From Litorivicinus sp. (GTDB lineage: Bacteria; Pseudomonadota; Gammaproteobacteria; Pseudomonadales; Litorivicinaceae), in NCBI GenBank assembly GCA_028339155.1, contig JAOLBK010000002.1:1-64000 (forward strand): a DNA stretch of 64,000 nucleotides, given 5' to 3'. The position numbers and the translations under genes were made by a program. This document shows, in pieces, positions 3,310 through 12,748 of the stretch (position 1 is its first letter; each line of letters begins with the position of its first letter). The notes under the pieces are model-generated. The model worked only from the letters and a program-made list of their open reading frames with translations, searched no databases and was not told where the DNA came from.

Positions 3310-3349
3310 ACATGAGCATAGCTATCAAGAAATGGTGCCCAGGAGAGGA
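3310..3349 (+). repeat. 32-bp repeat right copy fused to tRNA-Leu 3'-end copy (att remnant)
   Basis: 3310-3341 repeats 710-741 with one mismatch. 3332-3349 (atggtgcccaggagagga) is identical to 12661-12678, the 3' end of the tRNA-Leu gene on the same strand orientation, and agreement continues for 20 of 21 bases. This is the signature left at the far end of an element integrated by tyrosine recombinase into a tRNA 3' end. Confidence 0.8.
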
Positions 3350-3622
3350 TTTAGTTCCTGTACACATCACCAATGCTTCAATGATTACCTGCAATTGATA
3401 GTGTTCACTAGGCGTGAGTTCACAGTCAATACTGATAAATGTTCTTCTATTTGTGCACCCATTAAGAATGCTGATGCTAAACGTTATCAGTGCCCACTCA
3501 CATATGCCTCACTACAAACACTCCATCTGCATGTGATCACATCAGGTGCATTTAATATCCCTGAATAAACCACTTAGTTAGTTTATAGTTTTTTTGAGGT
3601 ACAAACGTTTGAAGGTAGCTCA

Positions 3623-5650
3623 ATGGCAATAATCACTTATGAAGACGGTTCTAGCTATAGTGGCGATCTTTTAGATGGCCAGTTTCATGGTGCAGGTACT
3701 TATACTTTGGCCAATGGTGATAGCTACTCAGGCGAGTGGGTAAATAATGTCGTTTCTAGTGAAGTTACTTATACTTGGGCCAATGGTGATAGCTACACCG
3801 GCGCATGGGTAAATGGTAAAGTTATTGGTGGCCTGATTGCTGGAGAAATTCCGTATTACGTGGGTACGGCAACAGTTAATAAACCAAAAACAGGTATTAA
3901 CACTGTAGATGCATTGCTATTTGATAACCCAGAAGCGTGGGCCTCCAATAAGACCTACGATAGTGGCACTTCTACGACCATAACCTACAGTTTTATTGAT
4001 CCCTCAGGGCCTTCCCTTTTTGCTGATGGCTATTACTCGCCTGATCCTGAAGTAGATTCTATTTATGGTATGTCTGTGGACCGTGGTCACCAAGAAGCTG
4101 TCAGGCTGGCATTAAGCCAATGGAGCGATGTTGCTGATCTAACCTTTGTAGAAGTTGCAGAAACGGCTGCGGAGGTGGGGACACTCCGATTTGGTTTTAC
4201 GGATCATCAATTATTAGCAGAACAACCATGGGGTTGGGGCCACGCAACATCTGCAGAGCCTATAGGCGGTGACATTTGGATTGACCAAAATCAAAATGAA
4301 GTGATACTGAGCAGCGGGGAATTGTACTTTCAAAAATATAATGAATTCTCTTATCACTTTTTAGGTGTGGTTCATGAAATTGGACATGCTCTTGGACTAG
4401 ATCATCCATTCGACGGTGTGGACACTTTGACTGCGTCTCTGGACATCAAAAACAATACAATCATGGCCTATAACACCCCAGAAAACTTTTATTATATTGA
4501 TGATTCTGGTTTTTATTATCTATTCTCAGCACCCATGGTTTACGACATTGCAGCGATCCAATATCTTTATGGGGCTCCAAGTCACAATGCTGGCGATACA
4601 GTATACAAATATGATCCAGCCAGGCCTTTTGTAGAAGCAATTTGGGATTCAGCTGGATACGACACATTGGACCTAAGCGATTTCACTAAAGCCTGTACGA
4701 TAAGTTTGGTCCCCGGAGCCTACTCAACAATCGTGTGTAACGATTGGTCTATGACCGAAAATCTGGGCATTGCTTTTGGGGCTATTATTGAGAAAGCCAT
4801 TGGCGGCTCTGGCAATGATATAATTATAGGCAACTCTGCAAATAATACTCTGCATGGTGAGGCTGGTGATGACGCCCTTAATAGTGGCTCTGGCAACGAT
4901 ACGCTAGATGGTGGCGTAGGAAACGATACGATAATCCTCGAAAGCAACGGTACCTTCGGCTCAGATTTATACGCCTACAACACCACCTCATTGCTACAAA
5001 CAGGTACAGAAGAGTGGATAGTTCTGGATGACAAAACACGCTTTGGGGACGTCATGGATGGTGGGGCTGATGTAGACACAGTCGAGCTTACAGATAGCTC
5101 AGATGCCTTCTTCCTGCATGATAACTTTGGTGGGTTTCACTCGTCTGTTACTCTTGTTGAAGACTATGACAGCCACCTTGGAGCCGCACGTATTGCGAAT
5201 ATAGAGAACATAATCTCTGGCGCAGGCGATGATATAATTGATCTCACATCCCCGGACTATTCACTCGCAGGTCAAAACATCACCGTTGATGGTGGGTCTG
5301 GGAATGACACGCTCTGGGGCTCTGATGCGAATGAAACGTTAAAAGGCGGCGAAGGTGATGACGAACTCTTTGGTGGTGCAGGAACAAATGCTTTAACAGG
5401 TGGTGCAGGTGCTGATGAGTTTCAGTTCACGAAGACATCAACGAACGACACGGTTAAAGATTTCAGCTTCAATGATGGTGATACCCTAAAGTTCGTCAAC
5501 ACTGGTGGTGCGCAGTTTGACCGTGGCAGTGTTAGCCTGACAGGTGATGTACTTTCCATCTCAGATGGAACTGACGTTCTTACCATTACCCTTGAGGGTG
5601 CTGGATTACAGTTGGACGATCTCCAGAGTGATGTCTTGATCATAGTCTGA
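3623..5650 (+). CDS. MORN-repeat / serralysin-like RTX metalloprotease
   Basis: 675 residues, no signal peptide. Residues ~4-70 hold two to three MORN repeats (YEDGSSYSGDLLDGQFHGAG; ANGDSYSGEWVN; ANGDSYTGAWVNGK). Residues ~85-380 form an M10 metalloprotease: zinc motif HEIGHALGLDH with ligands His251, His255, His261 and catalytic Glu252, a Met-turn IMAYN near residue 283, and the family's PMVYDIAAIQYLYG segment. Two blocks of nonapeptide RTX repeats follow (from ~394 and ~557, for example GGSGNDIIIGN, GGAGADEFQF), which bind calcium after export. A C-terminal hydrophobic tail ending DVLIIV is the expected type I secretion signal. No type I exporter genes are nearby, so export must use one encoded elsewhere. 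Start ATG 3623 has GAAGGT upstream. The MORN front end is unusual for a serralysin. Confidence 0.88.
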   Translation: MAIITYEDGSSYSGDLLDGQFHGAGTYTLANGDSYSGEWVNNVVSSEVTYTWANGDSYTGAWVNGKVIGGLIAGEIPYYVGTATVNKPKTGINTVDALLFDNPEAWASNKTYDSGTSTTITYSFIDPSGPSLFADGYYSPDPEVDSIYGMSVDRGHQEAVRLALSQWSDVADLTFVEVAETAAEVGTLRFGFTDHQLLAEQPWGWGHATSAEPIGGDIWIDQNQNEVILSSGELYFQKYNEFSYHFLGVVHEIGHALGLDHPFDGVDTLTASLDIKNNTIMAYNTPENFYYIDDSGFYYLFSAPMVYDIAAIQYLYGAPSHNAGDTVYKYDPARPFVEAIWDSAGYDTLDLSDFTKACTISLVPGAYSTIVCNDWSMTENLGIAFGAIIEKAIGGSGNDIIIGNSANNTLHGEAGDDALNSGSGNDTLDGGVGNDTIILESNGTFGSDLYAYNTTSLLQTGTEEWIVLDDKTRFGDVMDGGADVDTVELTDSSDAFFLHDNFGGFHSSVTLVEDYDSHLGAARIANIENIISGAGDDIIDLTSPDYSLAGQNITVDGGSGNDTLWGSDANETLKGGEGDDELFGGAGTNALTGGAGADEFQFTKTSTNDTVKDFSFNDGDTLKFVNTGGAQFDRGSVSLTGDVLSISDGTDVLTITLEGAGLQLDDLQSDVLIIV

Positions 5651-5925
5651 TCTGGAAGTAACCAAACTCAATACCATCCCACACCACTAAAGACAGCAAT
5701 AAGGTCAGTCACACCTCTAAAAAGAATAAAAAGTAGCAGAAAATAAACCTAACTAATCCTAAATATTAAACACTAATAATTTAGTGAACCAAATCTATGA
5801 ATGTAATTTCTCTCTAGTCATATATATAACCATTTTCCATCAAAGATGCTGATTGGATGTCAAGAAAGTGTGGGGTAATTAATTCATTCTGGTAATGGAA
5901 TGCACCTAGGAGTGTGTGATTCACT
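5651..5925. other. 275-bp AT-rich spacer
   Basis: Sequence between the metalloprotease stop and the next small frame. No hairpin terminator with a T-run and no promoter of good quality are visible. Confidence 0.4.
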
Positions 5926-6069
5926 GTGTCAGATAAAGAAGATACATATCGTAATAATTATAGGCTTAACTCAAGACCTTTAGATGTACACAGATGGAGT
6001 GATTATCCTGAAGTAAAACTGTTGATTGGCCGCTTATGGGATCCGACGCTATGCGCTTACTTATTTTAG
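5926..6069 (+). CDS. Small 47-aa frame overlapping the lyase-like gene
   Basis: A GTG-started frame of 47 codons (VSDKEDTYRNNYRLNSRPLD, then VHRWSDYPEV and a shorter tail) ends with TAG at 6067-6069, inside the start of the lyase-like gene. Its amino-acid composition (Arg, Trp, Tyr, Asp rich) looks like real protein rather than noise, and an AGGAG lies 13 bases upstream of the start. It may be a translated leader peptide or the surviving front of a larger gene destroyed by insertion. I cannot assign a family. Confidence 0.3.
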   Translation: MSDKEDTYRNNYRLNSRPLDVHRWSDYPEVKLLIGRLWDPTLCAYLF

Positions 6070-7268
6070 TTATACTGTTTTCCAGCTCATCATTTGGAAC
6101 TAATTTTAATAAGAAATCTGCACCAATAGTGCAGGAGCCTATCAATTTCATAGTCCCATCCGATGTGTTAGCGGATTTCGCTAAAGGCTCAGATCTAGAT
6201 AAAAAGAAATTTTGTTCGGCCTCCCCTAATTCTGTAAGTCTGGTTGATTCATATGGATCCGGCGAAAAAGAAATACCCCTATTGATTAAGGGATATAACA
6301 GCAGAATGGATAATGGACGAGACATACCATTTGCGGATGAGACAGGCCTTTTTATTTTGCGCATGTCGGAAGTGGTCACTGACGCTTGGGTCTTTAACGA
6401 TGAACGAAAAAAAGAGATTGCTTTAGGGGCCCTCAATCAATGGGCAAGTCAAGATGGATTATTAAAGACGAAATCTTGCACCCGAAATGGGAGGCTTGTT
6501 CAAGGCTGTACAGCATGGACCCAATCTGATGGTCAAGATTTATCCGACTCAAAGGACTTCTCCACGGTACAGATGTGGATTATGAAACTAGCCAATGCAT
6601 ATTTCTTTGCTCTATCAAACTTTAGACCTAATGACTCAAGGCACAAAACTATTCAAACGTGGCTTGGAGAGTTCTTCGAACGCAATAAAAGGGCTAATAA
6701 CGTCTATTTTGGGTTGGATCACGGGTGGTTCTATCCAGCCATCCTAGACAGATTGAGGCGAAATAAGTCGCCAGAGGCGCTTGTAACTAAGCTTTTGAAG
6801 GATCTAGATAAACAAGTGTTCGATGATGGATCAATGAAAGATCGTACAACCAGAGGTAACAGAGCCCTCTGGTATCACCATGACGCTGTCAAAGAAGCAA
6901 TGATCACCATTGAAATTGCACGGACTGCAGGTGTGGTGATACCAGATAAATTGAATGCTAAACTTAGCAAAGCAGGAGCGGTTTTCGTTAATGGCTATTT
7001 CGACCACTCAACTTTGGACAAGTGGGCAAAAGAAGCGCAAAACTCAGTGTACGAACAGGGAAAACAAGATTTTAAAAATAAGTTAAATCAAATGCCAAAT
7101 GGTCATTCTTGGTTCTACATATTTTCGTACCGAAATCCTCATGATCCACTAAGCATTAAATTAGATGACATGATCCGACAAGGTAATAACCAAGCTGTTA
7201 AAGATGGGCAGATCGGTATTGGTCTTGGGTGTATTTATGCTGTAGCAAAGGGTGGACGCAACCTTTGA
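6036..7268 (+). CDS. Alginate-lyase-superfamily secreted enzyme
   Basis: 410 residues; the better start is ATG 6051, giving the signal peptide MRLLILVILFSSSSFG. The mature protein is all-helical in character and follows the alginate-lyase (PF05426, PL5-like) fold: NVYFGLDHGWFY near residue 228-240 recalls the family's Asn/His site, DDGSMKDRTTRGNRALWYHH near residues 265-285 carries the Arg and Tyr-His cluster equivalent to the catalytic RGxRALHYHN of AlgL, and NGHSWFYIFSYRNP lies near the end. Known members cleave polymannuronate-type alginate by beta-elimination in the periplasm. No alginate synthesis genes are nearby, so a role in degrading algal or self polysaccharide is an inference. Sequence divergence is high; substrate may differ. 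No clear ribosome site. Confidence 0.65.
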   Translation: MGSDAMRLLILVILFSSSSFGTNFNKKSAPIVQEPINFIVPSDVLADFAKGSDLDKKKFCSASPNSVSLVDSYGSGEKEIPLLIKGYNSRMDNGRDIPFADETGLFILRMSEVVTDAWVFNDERKKEIALGALNQWASQDGLLKTKSCTRNGRLVQGCTAWTQSDGQDLSDSKDFSTVQMWIMKLANAYFFALSNFRPNDSRHKTIQTWLGEFFERNKRANNVYFGLDHGWFYPAILDRLRRNKSPEALVTKLLKDLDKQVFDDGSMKDRTTRGNRALWYHHDAVKEAMITIEIARTAGVVIPDKLNAKLSKAGAVFVNGYFDHSTLDKWAKEAQNSVYEQGKQDFKNKLNQMPNGHSWFYIFSYRNPHDPLSIKLDDMIRQGNNQAVKDGQIGIGLGCIYAVAKGGRNL

Positions 7269-7345
7269 TTCAAAGTGGTGAAAACATTTTTATCGGGCAT
7301 TTTCCACGTACAAAACAATAGATCAGAGGATGGCGGAGAGAATTT

Positions 7346-7600
7346 TTGATCCTAATTACGATCTTACTTTTGCTCGTTCTTTTATCTCTGTCGCTTCCAA
7401 GTTTTGGCGCTGACTTTAAGAAGGGACTCACTGCTTACAACAACGGAGACTATTCAACTGCCCTGAAAGAATTTACGCCGCTCGCAGAACAAGGGGATGC
7501 GGATTGGGCGTTAGAGTGGAACGGTATGATACAAATTCATATCACGCCTCTATATGGATGATGAAACTATCGAAAATGTCCTGGAGAACTTATTATGACT
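7346..7600 (+). pseudogene. Truncated, frameshifted Sel1-repeat protein
   Basis: A TTG-started frame (7346-7561) encodes a signal peptide (LITILLLLVLLSLSLPSFGA) and the first half of a Sel1/TPR-like unit: FKKGLTAYNNGDYSTALKEF then PLAEQGDADWA. Family members continue with NLGxMYxxG and many repeats; here the frame runs out at a TGA. In the next frame the DNA still reads YDTNSYHASIWMMKLSKMS up to a TAA at 7598-7600, consistent with a frameshift near 7520 and loss of the rest. Intact Sel1 proteins are exported scaffold or signalling proteins. An intact Sel1 gene with a different sequence occurs at 60933. Likely non-functional. Confidence 0.6.
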
Positions 7601-7966
7601 AAAATTAAGAGGTTTATGGGTCTAACGATATGCTTTGCAATAATTTTTGGAGCAATCACTCACGTAGGAGTTAGCCTGTATAGCGACATCATGAGCGCAA
7701 GTTTCGTATTCGGGGGAGCCGTAGGCTATGTGTTCCTTAAAAATGAACCTAACCAGCGAATTAAGAGTTTTGGTAGAGGATTAATATTTTTTGGTTGGTT
7801 AGGTGCCTTGATCGGTGTAATTGCCATTACCGGCGATGCATTTGGAACGTTAGGGAGTGTTGAAAAAATAGCTTCCGCGTTCTCAGTCGCTTTGCTCCCA
7901 ATACTCTATGGTTACCTCGGTAACTTAGTCTGTTTAACCATTTATTCGGATAGTAGCTCTGCATAG
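7595..7966 (+). CDS. Small four-helix membrane protein, MotA-like
   Basis: 123 residues with four predicted membrane segments (about 8-25, 33-50, 62-80, 92-115). The third and fourth resemble the proton/sodium-channel helices of MotA/TolQ-type stators: GWLGALIGVIAITGD followed by ASAFSVALLPILYGYLGN, to be compared with GTLVGLVLMLGN and AVALLTTLYGALLAN in the PomA encoded at 58961. The ~100-residue cytoplasmic domain that MotA carries between helices 2 and 3 is missing, replaced by a 15-residue loop. No MotB partner is adjacent. A CTGGAGAAC ribosome site stands 8-10 bases before the ATG. TctB of tricarboxylate transporters is an alternative four-helix protein of similar size but fits less well. 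Confidence 0.5.
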   Translation: MTKIKRFMGLTICFAIIFGAITHVGVSLYSDIMSASFVFGGAVGYVFLKNEPNQRIKSFGRGLIFFGWLGALIGVIAITGDAFGTLGSVEKIASAFSVALLPILYGYLGNLVCLTIYSDSSSA

Positions 7967-8405
7967 GAGTTAGTAATTGAAACTTCTGCTAGACATCCTT
8001 TCCTGTCAAAACTGAGCTTTCGATAGGCTATGGTGCTTTGATGGCTGTAAGTTATTCACATACAAGCTAGCAAGTATTAATTACGAATAAGTCACTGATT
8101 TTGATAGAATTAGTTAATTTTTTACATCTATCTAATCTTATTTTTTATCACTGCTCATACCACTAAGGTGATTCCTTAAATTCTGTTCTGCACAGATCAT
8201 GATCTTTATTTACTTGGTGGGCCAGTAGGGGCCCCCGGGGGGGGCTAAACAGCCTTTAAAGTATTCTTAGTATCCACTTCCATTTACCAAAAGCTGATTT
8301 CAAACAGGCGTTGTATCTTTGTTAAGAAAAATAAAATCAGTCTTTCTAGACGGTCATTTTAACGAAAGATTCGGGTAAAATTTGAATAGTTGGTTTTGAA
8401 GAGCG
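7967..8405. other. Non-coding spacer with a G/C homopolymer block
   Basis: About 440 bp of AT-rich DNA without a credible gene. At 8227-8244 it contains an abrupt run of GGGG-CCCCC-GGGGGGGG, very unlike its surroundings. I see no tRNA, inverted terminal repeat or insertion sequence end. Confidence 0.5.
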
Positions 8406-8561
8406 GTGTGCCGATTGTTGCCCTTATTTTTGTGAATTGTTTTGATGCTTGGGTGCAACAGTAGTGAGCGGATAAAGAATAGATATTCTGAATATAGTAT
8501 CAACGAATTTAATAAAGCCTTCATCGAGCGAAGTCATGAATCGAGTAAAGACATAAACTGA
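8406..8561 (+). pseudogene. Possible broken small lipoprotein
   Basis: One frame reads VPIVALIFVNC (hydrophobic signal core) and another, one base over, reads IVLMLGCNSSERIKNRYSEY up to a TGA at 8559-8561. Joined, they would make a ~50-residue lipoprotein with lipobox LMLGC; as written, an in-frame TGA at 8433-8435 separates them. It ends ten bases before the first possible start of the channel gene. Weak call: it could be chance. Confidence 0.25.
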
Positions 8562-8570
8562 ATTTAATTT

Positions 8571-9674
8571 GTGGCTCTATTTGTTATTCTGGGCCCACGC
8601 TTTTATCAAAAGGAATGCAAATTGACGTTTAGATTTTTTTTAGAGCGTTTTGTAACTTTAATAACAGTATTTTTATTAGCAGTAAATGCGTTTGGACAAG
8701 CCAGCGAGTCGATCGTGAGGTCATCCTTAATAGTGACCGAAATTAGTGATATCAGCATCCAAGAATCTACTTTTTATGCGAAGGCTGAATTATCCCTTAT
8801 GTGGCGCCCCACAGACGAAACAAGCGTCGCCTTGAATCTAGGAAACACGATTAAATATTCACTGGCGCAACTCGCTTCTGAAGGCCGATTGCCGTGGATT
8901 CCAGAATTTTTCGTTGCCAACTCTGTGCTTCCAAGAGAGCGGATGGCGCAAACGCTGACCGTTTATCCGGATGGGACTTTTGAGTTATTCGAACGGTTTG
9001 GGGCCGCGCTAAAGTTAAGTGATCCCATGCCTTCCTACCCTTTTGGCTCTCAAAAAATCGAATTAATAATAATGCCAACGAATGACTCAGTTGAAACCTT
9101 CAGATTTATTCCCAAGCTCTTTCAGGTGGGCAATGCTAATTCTCAAGAAGCCATCACTGGTAATTGGAATTTGATTCGCAACTATTCTTCAACACAAGAT
9201 TACCCGACCTTGAAATATGACGGCGTAGAGTATCTTTCAAAATTGAATTACACCCTACTTTTAGATCATGATTTTTTTGTGATTTTACAAGCGGCTTTGG
9301 GGCCAATATTTTTGATTACACTTCTTTCGTTATTCATCAACCGATATTGCGTGATACAGGAAACTGAGTCTGGAGGCGATAACGGAAACTGGCGAATTGG
9401 TGGGCAGTTGACGCTTCTGCTAACAGTTTTTGCTCTCAAGTTTTCGCTGGGAGACCAGATGCCTCAGGTTGAATATCTGACTTTTCTGGACGCTCTATTT
9501 ATCATCTCTGAGATTGTAATCAGCCTATGTCTTTTCGTTGGTATATTCTCCATTTACAAAGTCCAAACTGGTGATTTGGTGGTCGGGCAAAAAATCGACC
9601 GCCTCGGGACACCAATTATAAGCGTAGTTACCCTCATTCTTTTTACATGGTCAGTTTTTTATGCGTTTATTTAA
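8571..9674 (+). CDS. Pentameric ligand-gated ion channel (GLIC/ELIC-type)
   Basis: The best start is TTG 8622 (AAAGGA nine bases upstream), giving 350 residues with signal peptide MTFRFFLERFVTLITVFLLA. The frame is open from GTG 8571. The extracellular domain shows the prokaryotic channel pattern: STFYAKAELSLMW, then WIPEFFVANS, then VYPDGTFELFERFGAAL, then the Pro-loop MPSYPFGSQKIEL (Gly where most members have Asp). Four membrane helices follow at roughly 218-240, 258-277, 287-312 and 328-350. The pore helix reads WRIGGQLTLLLTVFALKFSL and aligns with ELIC M2 through the shared T-L-x-L-T-V core and with GLIC through PYMTY-like sequence before M3. There is no acidic residue at the -1'/-2' ring. 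The next gene, a binding protein, overlaps by 14 bp. Function as a cation or anion channel is not determinable here; the ligand is unknown. Confidence 0.88.
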   Translation: MALFVILGPRFYQKECKLTFRFFLERFVTLITVFLLAVNAFGQASESIVRSSLIVTEISDISIQESTFYAKAELSLMWRPTDETSVALNLGNTIKYSLAQLASEGRLPWIPEFFVANSVLPRERMAQTLTVYPDGTFELFERFGAALKLSDPMPSYPFGSQKIELIIMPTNDSVETFRFIPKLFQVGNANSQEAITGNWNLIRNYSSTQDYPTLKYDGVEYLSKLNYTLLLDHDFFVILQAALGPIFLITLLSLFINRYCVIQETESGGDNGNWRIGGQLTLLLTVFALKFSLGDQMPQVEYLTFLDALFIISEIVISLCLFVGIFSIYKVQTGDLVVGQKIDRLGTPIISVVTLILFTWSVFYAFI

Positions 9675-10659
9675 TAAATTTCGATTCCAAAACAGAGCTA
9701 ATTGTGTTGTGAATGTTTTGCGTTTTTTGTTAATGATAACCACTCTTATTATTCAAAATATAGGTATAGCGGACACTGTTGAGGAGATACATTTTTTAAT
9801 TCCTGGTGGCGCTGGTGGCGGTTGGGATGGGACAGGGCGTGGGGTTGCGGAGGCCCTTCTCTTGAGTCAATCGTTAGCGAAAGGAATGTCGGTCGAGAAT
9901 ATGTCCGGAAAAGGTGGTGGCAAAGCCATTCGATTCTTGATGGAGGAGGCGGCTGACTCGCCAGTAGTCATGGTGAATTCGACACCTATAATTTTACGAA
10001 ATCTTGTGGGAGTTTTCCCAGAGAGTTTTCGTGACCTTACACCGCTTGCCTGCTTGATTGGGGACTATGGTGCTTTAGTAGTGCGCAACGAGAGCAAAAT
10101 TAAGAATTTTTCGGATCTGGTTGCTGAATTCGAATCAGACTCTACTAAATTAAAAGTCGCTGGTGGCTCGTTAGCTGGAGGTATGGATCACCTGGTTATG
10201 GCTCTTGCACTCAAGTCAGCAGGCGCTGATCCGAAAGATCTCGTTTACGTCCCATACGACGGCGGTGGAAATGCCATGAAATCACTTTTATTTGGGGAAA
10301 CGCAGATTTTGTCTACCGGATTGTCGGAAGCACTAGCCTTGGCTGCTCAAGGTAATGTCCGCGTGCTGGTGACGACAGCCCCGGATAAAATTAATGATCT
10401 TCCATCACTTCGTTCTGAAGGATATCCGGCGGATTTCGTAAATTGGCGTGGCTTATTTGGACCACCCAACTTATCGGTCACGCGGCAAGAGAAGCTCCAT
10501 AAAGTGCTAGAAAAGATGTATCAGACTGAGGTCTGGGAACGAATTCGAGAAAAGAATGCGTGGACAAATCTTTTTATTCCCGGAAGTGATTTTACTGACT
10601 TCTTGGGGGTACAAGAATTGCAGATCCAAGCCCTATTAGCTGAGCTAGGTTTTTTGTAA
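9661..10659 (+). CDS. TctC/Bug-family periplasmic solute-binding protein
   Basis: 332 residues from ATG 9661; GTG 9709 (VNVLRFLLMITTLIIQNIGI) would give a cleaner signal peptide with cleavage after GIA. The mature protein opens with EEIHFLIPGGAGGGWDGTGR, the ligand-cradling loop of tripartite tricarboxylate transporter receptors, and has other family marks: NSTPIILRNL, LTPLACLIGDYGALVV, AGGSLAGGMDHLVMALAL, VPYDGGGNAMKSLLFGE, and a C-terminal FLGVQELQIQALLAELGF helix. Bug proteins bind carboxylates or other small metabolites in the periplasm, often as orphans and sometimes as co-receptors for signalling proteins. No tctA/tctB permease genes are present. The 14-bp overlap with the channel gene indicates translational coupling, so the likely partner is the channel. 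Ligand unknown. Confidence 0.85.
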   Translation: MRLFNKFRFQNRANCVVNVLRFLLMITTLIIQNIGIADTVEEIHFLIPGGAGGGWDGTGRGVAEALLLSQSLAKGMSVENMSGKGGGKAIRFLMEEAADSPVVMVNSTPIILRNLVGVFPESFRDLTPLACLIGDYGALVVRNESKIKNFSDLVAEFESDSTKLKVAGGSLAGGMDHLVMALALKSAGADPKDLVYVPYDGGGNAMKSLLFGETQILSTGLSEALALAAQGNVRVLVTTAPDKINDLPSLRSEGYPADFVNWRGLFGPPNLSVTRQEKLHKVLEKMYQTEVWERIREKNAWTNLFIPGSDFTDFLGVQELQIQALLAELGFL

Positions 10660-11015
10660 TTTTGCTATCCGGGCCAAGCTCTTATTAGGTCTTGGACTTT
10701 GGCAAACATTGCTTTTACTTCAGGATGTTCTGAGTAAATTTCTATGCACAGATAACTGACATCTTTCACAGGCTATCCTTAATTTTTCCTAATACCCAAA
10801 ACACTTCCTCCTCCTAGTTATTATCCTTTGTGTATCTAGCTCTCTAGAGCATTACAGCTATGCAGTCATCAAAGTCTCAGAAAGTATTAATAATAGATGT
10901 ATTCAATTATCATCAAAAAGTCGCTATATGTTCTAAAAAGTGCTTAAAAATTATTAAATAACTCAAAATTACCTATAATTAGAACAATATATAGCGCCTA
11001 TACAGGCACATTCTT
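10660..11015. other. 356-bp AT-rich spacer
   Basis: Between the converging binding-protein gene and integrase remnant. Strongly AT-rich toward its right end; no open frame or strong hairpin seen. Confidence 0.45.
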
Positions 11016-12543
11016 TTAGGCTTTGTAGAGCTGAATAACCTTTTCATTGTTCTCATTGAGAAAGCCCATCGCTTTGCTTACCGCCATTTCGAACCGTTTC
11101 ACCATCTCTGTCGAGCCGATTCCCTGCCGCCCGTAATGTTTGAGCATTTGCGATTGCCCATTGTCTCCGGCCCATCCTGCGAGGTAGAGGATATCCATCG
11201 GTTTGGCATCGGCCGCGTGCAGATAAAATTTGAAGCTGTGGCGAGTGCAGTAGGTTGTGTAGCCTACACGGCCGGGATCACAGGCTTTAAAATAGTCGTT
11301 GAGCTGACGGTTAATGTTGGATTCAGAGGTTGCCCATTGGTAGCCGTTAGCCGTCATCACTACCAGTGCTTTTGGCAGTGCTGTGGGCTGCCCTTCATCC
11401 ATGCAGTCTAGAAGTTGTTGAAGTCGCTCGACCCGCAACGGTAAAGGCACGATCCGCTTGCGATCTTTGGTTTTCAGTTCAGTGTCATACAGACTGATGT
11501 GGGGGGTGCCTGCCTCCAAATGGATGTCATGACGCTCCAGCCGGATCAGCTCCGACATAATGGTCGACGATTGGCAAAGTATCGTGAAGACAAATTCCTT
11601 CCAAGGCTGATACTTTTTGTCTGCTTGGTCTTGGATCAGATTCCATAATACCCGATAGGTGTCTTTTGGTATGACTGGGCGTTGCTTCTCTTCCGTTTTG
11701 ATATCAAGCCGCGGCATAACCCACTGAAGGTCAAGCGCTTTGGCTTGCCGTGCATAATTTAATACGGCGCGGATCACACCTAATTCCCGTTTCAACGTTT
11801 GATCCTGAACCTGTCTGCCTTTTTGAGCATCCAGCCATGCTCTGAGTCCATCGTTGATGGATTGATTGGTAAGCACTTCGTCACCGACAACAGAGACAAA
11901 CGATTGCCATCGGCGGAGTGTCTTCTGGTGCTTTTGGCTGCTTACATCGAGGTTTTTTCTGGAGGCATAAATATCCCACAGATCGCCGAAAATGACGGGT
12001 TTTCTCGATGATTTCTATTCGGTGTAAGCAATCCAAGCTTCTCGCTGTAATTGCACCTCTGGAAGCATCTGGTGAACTCTAGGAAGAAGCCCACTCCCAT
12101 TCTCACGGGCTTCCACCTGATGGCGCTGTGTCCAATCTACGAGGTCATTAAATGCCCCAGAGAACTCTCGTGTATTGTCGATAAATTCAAAATGATGATT
12201 GTGTTCGTTTTCGTCGGCGATCCCGCCTAGAGCGCCGCCGTGAGTATTGAGGTTAAATATCTTGAGGTGAGCTTCAGCCCTCCCTGCGACGCTCTCTTTG
12301 ATCCAATGTGTGTGGGTTTCGTTCTTTGATATTGGTGAGCGATGTTTCAAAAGTTTGATGAATTAGCGTCCAAGCACTGATGACTTCAGTAACGGGCGCA
12401 TCAATTTTAAGGCCCAAGGGGCGTTTCCAAGATTTTTTTTCATTCCAATAGGGATGCGCTAAGACAGCTTTCGGTACGCGCCGTTCGTACTGCCAGTACC
12501 CGTTATTTCCGGTAAGATGTTTGATGTTCATTAGCTCATCCAT
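11016..12543 (-). pseudogene. Tyrosine-recombinase integrase, frameshift plus nonsense
   Basis: Read leftward from ATG 12543, a first frame encodes ~75 residues of an N-terminal segment (HLTGNNGYWQYERRVPKAVL, typical of phage-like integrases), then a frameshift lies between about 12350 and 12300. The second frame continues with ISKNETHTHWIKESVAGRAE and runs into a TAG at 12015-12017, after which the same frame is open to 11016 and holds the SAM-like core-binding and catalytic domains. In the catalytic part I see LYDTELKTKDRKRIVPLPLR, the TRHSFKFYLH box (R and H) and HYGRQG with the presumed nucleophile Tyr. Full length would be ~509 residues. It abuts the tRNA-Leu target, consistent with its role in integrating the island. 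Two lesions make activity improbable unless the pieces are expressed separately. Confidence 0.85.
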
Positions 12544-12660
12544 ACGGGCAGTGTACGAACAAAAATAAATAATGTCCCTACTAATGTCCCTAAATTAGGC
12601 GCATTTCAAAGGCTAAATATTCAATAAGATAATGATTTAATTGATTTTTTAAATATAAAG

Positions 12661-12678
12661 ATGGTGCCCAGGAGAGGA
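12661..12678 (+). repeat. Attachment core within tRNA-Leu 3' end
   Basis: Eighteen bases identical to 3332-3349, covering the encoded CCA, acceptor stem and part of the T-arm of the tRNA. The integration therefore left a complete tRNA gene at this end. Confidence 0.75.
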
Positions 12679-12748
12679 CTTGAACCTCCACGGAGTTTCC
12701 CCCACTAGCACCTGAAGCTAGCGCGTCTACCAATTTCGCCACCTGGGC
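12662..12748 (-). tRNA. tRNA-Leu (anticodon CAG)
   Basis: 87 nt with a seven-pair acceptor stem (GCCCAGG with CCTGGGC), discriminator A and encoded CCA at 12662-12664. The D-arm contains AAATTGGTAGAC, the anticodon loop is TTCAGGT inside a CTAGC/GCTAG stem (anticodon CAG, reading CUG), a long class II variable arm follows, and the T-loop is GGTTCAAGTCC. The structure is complete despite serving as the island target. Confidence 0.95.

Follow-up and report, generated by a model that had tools for sequence, protein, structure and literature searches.

In a stretch of 64,000 nucleotides from Litorivicinus sp. (hereafter the window), a gene for a pentameric ligand-gated ion channel stands directly before a gene for a periplasmic solute-binding protein of the TctC/Bug family (hereafter Bug). 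Does the binding protein cooperate with the channel, does it serve a transporter encoded elsewhere in the genome, or are the two genes incidental neighbours? The pairing is a correctly read, unusual combination of two known families on a mobile-looking segment, the features of which are collected in Table 1.

Table 1. Features of the channel-Bug segment (window coordinates).
Feature	Position	Strand	Remarks
Distal copy of 18-bp direct repeat, attachment-site-like	3332..3349	.	repeat search
Protein with MORN, matrixin/serralysin-C and RTX repeat matches	3623..5650	+	same segment
Alginate-lyase domain match	6036..7268	+	25 bits vs cut-off 22.2; same segment
Pentameric ligand-gated ion channel gene	8622..9674	+	350 aa from likelier TTG start; listed ORF begins GTG 8571
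TctC/Bug periplasmic solute-binding protein gene	9661..10659	+	332 aa; alternative start GTG 9709
Integrase-like remnant	11016..11876	-	Pfam Phage_integrase 4.9e-4, 20.4 bits, below cut-off 27.1
Two short ORFs, 12015-12350 and 12274-12543	12015..12543	-	between integrase-like ORF and tRNA; no Pfam match
18-bp repeat copy at tRNA-Leu 3' end, attachment-site-like	12661..12678	.
tRNA-Leu (CAG), presumed integration target	12662..12748	-

The channel, the binding protein and their junction

Judged by its homologs and its predicted fold, the ORF at 8571-9674 is a genuine pentameric ligand-gated channel of the GLIC/DeCLIC-like kind. Inspection of the ribosome-binding sites favours TTG 8622, with AAGGA 7 nt upstream, over GTG 8571 as its start. 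In phmmer comparisons with PDB sequences, the protein matches the GLIC-GABA-receptor chimera 5osa at an E-value of 2.7e-10, and GLIC (3eam) and DeCLIC (6v4a) at about 5e-8; the PDB matches span residue 51 to about 360 of 367 (best match 51-353). The AlphaFold2 model, a single chain built from an 11-row alignment (mean pLDDT 77, pTM 0.60), consists of a signal-like helix, a beta-sandwich and four long helices (235-259, 270-294, 304-332 and 336-366). The 50 top-ranking Foldseek hits of this model in the PDB all belong to GLIC, GLIC chimeras, DeCLIC or sTeLIC, with E-values from 3e-20 (a GLIC mutant) to 2e-18 and TM-scores by query of 0.50-0.57, and the Pro-loop motif YPFG is present in 11/11 rows of the channel alignment. 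The phmmer, AlphaFold2 and Foldseek results bear out the preliminary description, which had assigned the gene to the GLIC/ELIC-type pentameric channels; the ligand-gated pentameric pore itself is a prediction, with homology and a monomer model behind the class assignment. The window channel thus resembles GLIC, DeCLIC and sTeLIC in its fold, Pro-loop region and four helices as well as in sequence and structure matches, whereas DeCLIC differs in carrying an additional N-terminal domain in the same chain. We know of no separate binding protein for any of these three channels.

A Pfam search with the window channel yields no match at E<=1. Two of its relatives (L039 and L041) pass the cut-off of the Pfam LBD model, another (L037) and the paralog in the same genome match below the cut-off, and two more (L038 and L023) have no Pfam match at E<=0.01. 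The pore positions were read from the phmmer alignment to the glycine-receptor part of 4x5t; in the prime numbering that we presume for this pore (-2' to 23'), the channel residues Asn-Trp-Arg align at -2', -1' and 0', and continuing without gaps from there places Leu at 9', Asp at 20' and Pro at 23'. In the 11-row alignment, position -2' is occupied by Asp or Glu in 8/10 channel relatives, by Ser in another and by an unread residue (X) in the last; because the window channel has Asn at this position, its ion selectivity is not readable with confidence.

The second gene had been described as a TctC/Bug periplasmic protein, and both Pfam (TctC, 5.5e-16, above the family cut-off) and homologs in the PDB (TTT binding protein 25hk, 3.1e-16; Bug27, 4.5e-12) agree with this identity. 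If Bug starts at ATG 9661, 14 bp (9661-9674) are common to both ORFs, so the reported overlap holds for this start; the ATG is without a good Shine-Dalgarno sequence, and with the in-frame GTG 9709 as start the overlap gives way to a 34-bp gap. Both reading frames are open. Altogether, the families, the gene order and the tight linkage of the pair stand as first read. A signal scan of positions 7900-11050 found no terminator-like site on the + strand, but hits in this region are at chance level (observed vs shuffles: terminators 1 vs 2.8, promoters 6 vs 7.4), and co-transcription of channel and Bug is therefore assumed. Overlapping genes on the same strand are usually co-transcribed. Three promoter-like hits on the + strand lie inside the channel gene, so that Bug may also have a separate promoter.

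A segment bounded by a tRNA-Leu repeat

The 18-mer ATGGTGCCCAGGAGAGGA is found at 12661, at the 3' end of tRNA-Leu, and again at 3332. The chance expectation of one given 18-mer in the window is about 2e-6 under a uniform base model, or ~2e-4 allowing for roughly 100 positions tried. The two copies bound a 9.3-kb segment (3332-12678) that holds the channel and Bug. Since this segment also contains an integrase-like remnant, the pair is probably acquired mobile cargo and the segment a putative island. The two short ORFs between the integrase-like ORF and the tRNA are taken as further remnants, by position only.

The tRNA-Leu lies beside miaA in 11/11 loci of the genus with a miaA match, the own locus included. 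On the 3' side of the tRNA, viewed in 4/10 other loci, three loci have an 85-aa ORF and a second ORF in common; no integrase was seen there within 1.3 kb. A tblastn search of the 10 other genus loci with two proteins of the left flank and with the window's protease gave no match. The tRNA-Leu site has the look of a hotspot for integration.

In the fourth of the viewed loci, from a different species of the genus (L059 1055-1312), a DUF6538 ORF lies beside the same tRNA-Leu. This domain, which we take to be an integrase-associated N-terminal domain, suggests a repeatedly used integration site.

Occurrence and neighbours of related channels

Channels of this kind are rare and patchy. With the own genome counted in every n, a channel is present in 1/22 genomes of the genus (with two copies there), in 1/25 genomes of the family (the 22 genus genomes included), and in 9/390 genomes of the order sample at E<=1e-3. 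At E<=1e-15, 1/398 genomes of the phylum sample and 4/369 of the class sample have one. None of the 21 other genus genomes contains the channel; many of them are incomplete, and the channel is absent from all 10 of the 22 genomes that are at least 90% complete. In the family of G260, 2/22 genomes match at E<=1e-8, the second match being L088. The Pfam LBD model, a search that misses the window channel itself, matches in 7/398 genomes of the phylum sample and in 3/48 genomes of the order of G405, the latter three already among the collected loci. No channel relative was found on viral contigs in three scans, nor on plasmids by protein comparison; at the DNA level, no plasmid matched the segment. 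The first scan of genome contigs returned no channel and the second 11 matches, one of which (L047) agrees with L024 in length and ORFs and counts as its duplicate; no TctC gene lies within 3.5 kb of the channel at any of the 11.

The neighbourhood comparison covers 28 channel loci, drawn from no more than 25 other genomes: L023-L030 (8, order search), L037-L046 (10, genome contigs) and L077-L086 (10, phylum and class). Twelve of the 28 (L023, L024, L037-L046) belong to the subfamily of the window channel, with 26-45% identity. Some loci are poor: the channel is fragmentary in L024 and L083, L042 and L046 start within the channel gene, and L086 offers 94 bp downstream. In addition, L025 and L026 represent one neighbourhood, as do L084-L086. 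A TctC profile, trained on Bug together with four of the seven other TctC matches of the own genome, recovers its training proteins (window, L031) and the independent controls L012 and L049, but matches in 0/28 of these loci. We found no second genome with a channel-TctC/Bug pair in any genome searched. A conserved pairing of the two families had been proposed as a test of the first reading, in which loaded Bug docks on the channel and gates it, and the result is mostly against that reading: with TctC in 0/28 loci and the channel in 0/21 other genus genomes, homologous channels usually occur without Bug. Taken as a whole, the first reading is partly supported, its interpretation weakly.

Among the neighbouring ORFs of at least 180 aa (66, two per side), 49 were compared with Pfam, along with two shorter ones, at E limits from 0.01 to 1e-8. 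A gene for a periplasmic sensor adjoins the channel in 3/28 loci, with one Phosphonate-bd and two dCache_3 domains. In G405 (L080 1503-7013), the channel, a Phosphonate-bd protein 27 bases downstream and a hybrid histidine kinase form a compact same-strand run; at L077 389-2658 and L081 5253-7672, the channel ORF overlaps a dCache_3 ORF, and the two are either separate genes or a fused gene split by a frameshift. The remaining neighbours are a mixed set that includes amidohydrolase, P450, Band_7, TPR, M50 peptidase and Na/Ca exchanger genes. A single binding protein next to 28 channels does not clearly exceed what chance would give.

In three genomes of one genus (L084, L085 and L086), a Peptidase_M50 gene adjoins the channel.

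The second channel of the own genome (G000:C12:149793-150938; L011 5794-6942) is 34-40% identical to the window channel. It is followed on the same strand by genes for a Peripla_BP_5 protein (urtA-like) and a BPD_transp_2 permease, by transporter-like ORFs, and by UreD and urease gamma, while an Ion_trans gene in divergent orientation lies about 180 bp upstream; urt names, and the identities of ORFs without a Pfam run, are presumed from gene context. Hence, each of the two channels found in this genome, which is 88% complete, is followed by a gene for a binding protein, and the two proteins belong to different superfamilies; the pattern is post hoc and comprises two cases. Because the urtA-like gene is the first of a transporter operon of its own and, counted from the in-frame ATG, would begin about 290 bp from the channel stop, its adjacency to the channel may be incidental. 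At 34 to 40% identity, the urt-linked paralog is ruled out as a recent duplicate of the window channel.

Cooperation, transport or incidental linkage

The general idea that a channel cooperates with a stand-alone sensor is already published. According to the excerpted text of a 2004 study (Genome Biol., 2004-12-20, PMC549065), channel genes adjoin genes for stand-alone PBP-II proteins and, in a single bacterium, a Cache gene; channel and binding protein were proposed to cooperate in chemoreception. The corresponding excerpt of a 2016 article (PMC4795631) has such domain associations evidenced at genome level only. The window pair resembles the ART-LGIC/PBP-II and Cache neighbourhoods in that a stand-alone periplasmic binding-protein gene adjoins the channel gene, here on the same strand; it differs in that the excerpt names the PBP-II superfamily for those partners, while the partner here is TctC, with both genes on a putatively mobile island. 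A precedent exists in Bordetella, where the TctC protein BctC functions in transport and, when loaded, also acts on a membrane receptor, BctE (PMC5812351, PMC9602780, as excerpted); this receptor is a histidine kinase, not a channel, and adjoins a bctCBA operon of its own. A search of the full text of open-licence papers found none linking tripartite tricarboxylate terms with pentameric ligand-gated ones. The pair is a variant of the neighbourhood type described in 2004; new here are the location of the pair on a 9.3-kb island-like segment and the second channel that also precedes a binding-protein gene.

Another possible partner for Bug is a transporter. The preliminary description had pointed out that no tctA or tctB gene lies nearby, which is correct for the ORFs listed around the pair but misleading for the genome. 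At G000:C30, tctC, tctB and tctA stand together, each confirmed by Pfam, and the encoded TctC shares 59% identity with Bug across 294 residues; ORFs divergent from tctCBA resemble a response regulator and a kinase (named from sequence). Altogether, the genome contains 8 Pfam TctC matches, 7 of them over the cut-off, Bug included. Of the 21 other genus genomes, 8 give one match each at E<=1e-40, seven at 58-61% identity and one at 33%. We aligned Bug with the own TctC and five full-length genus orthologs, leaving out the partial hits L054 and L055. The six TctC proteins are mutually 86-95% identical and Bug is 54-56% identical to each, which rules out Bug as a recent duplicate of the genus TctC. 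Across seven motifs selected visually, 59/61 residues of Bug agree with the resident TctC, vs 171/291 over the mature protein; as the motifs were picked from the alignment itself, this comparison is descriptive and does not amount to a test. The pattern suggests that Bug has the same ligand class as the resident TctC and diverges elsewhere, and binding of a carboxylate is predicted from the retained motifs.

Among the readings considered, we favour a co-expressed sensor pair, in which Bug would cooperate with the channel and both would be cargo of a tRNA-Leu-integrated island, at a probability of roughly 40%. It is favoured because of the same-strand adjacency (overlapping by 14 bp or separated by no more than 34 bp), the retention of the seven motifs in comparison with the resident TctC (59/61), the analogous neighbourhoods with other sensors in L080, L077 and L081, the second own-genome channel that also precedes a binding-protein gene (urtA-like), and the published proposal (PMC549065) together with the BctC-BctE precedent (PMC5812351, PMC9602780), both as excerpted. 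Counting against it are the lack of TctC in 28/28 other loci and of a second genome with the pair, the unrelated genes on the segment, the chance level of promoter- and terminator-like hits, the possibly incidental place of the urtA-like gene, and tctCBA in the same genome, which provides another possible partner for Bug.

It is a realistic possibility, short of even odds, that Bug is a second solute-binding protein working in trans for the resident TctAB, or for another permease, and that the channel is an independent neighbour. The complete tctCBA set with its 59% identical TctC and shared motifs fits this explanation; moreover, the excerpt of PMC5812351 describes orphan TctC proteins without neighbouring tctAB as common in some bacteria, and the sharing of few TctAB by them as suggested, without evidence so far. 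The tight linkage of Bug to the channel is left unexplained, however, and Bug differs at 81/246 columns that are invariant in the six genus TctC proteins, so that a shared docking face is not assured. Cooperation with the channel is slightly favoured over service to TctAB. Unrelated cargo genes that have become neighbours on a decaying island, without being connected in function, would agree with the bounding repeat, the integrase-like remnant, the unrelated genes on the segment, the 0/28 loci with TctC and the heterogeneous channel neighbours; but both frames have stayed open, overlapping genes of this kind usually share a transcript, and each of the two channels found in the genome has a binding-protein gene after it. 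We regard such a chance arrangement as unlikely.

If channel and Bug do form a sensor pair, they would be transcribed together, and Bug would bind the same small carboxylate as the resident TctC or a similar one. Bug may then help the channel to respond, either by concentrating the ligand and handing it over, in line with the idea published in 2004, or by docking in its loaded form, like BctC on BctE; opening of the channel would change the membrane potential or the ion balance. A more specific candidate, in our view distinctly improbable, is that loaded TctC docks on the outer domain of the channel and gates it, which would make the pair a mobile two-gene sensor converting ligand binding into ion flux; the urea-type binding protein may act likewise on the paralogous channel.

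To our knowledge, few bacterial relatives of neurotransmitter receptors have a settled role in the cells that carry them. A unit of two genes whose ligand-binding partner comes from a family of known ligand chemistry would offer a direct handle on both agonist and physiology, and if docking proves true, ion channels would join the receptors that are driven by loaded binding proteins.
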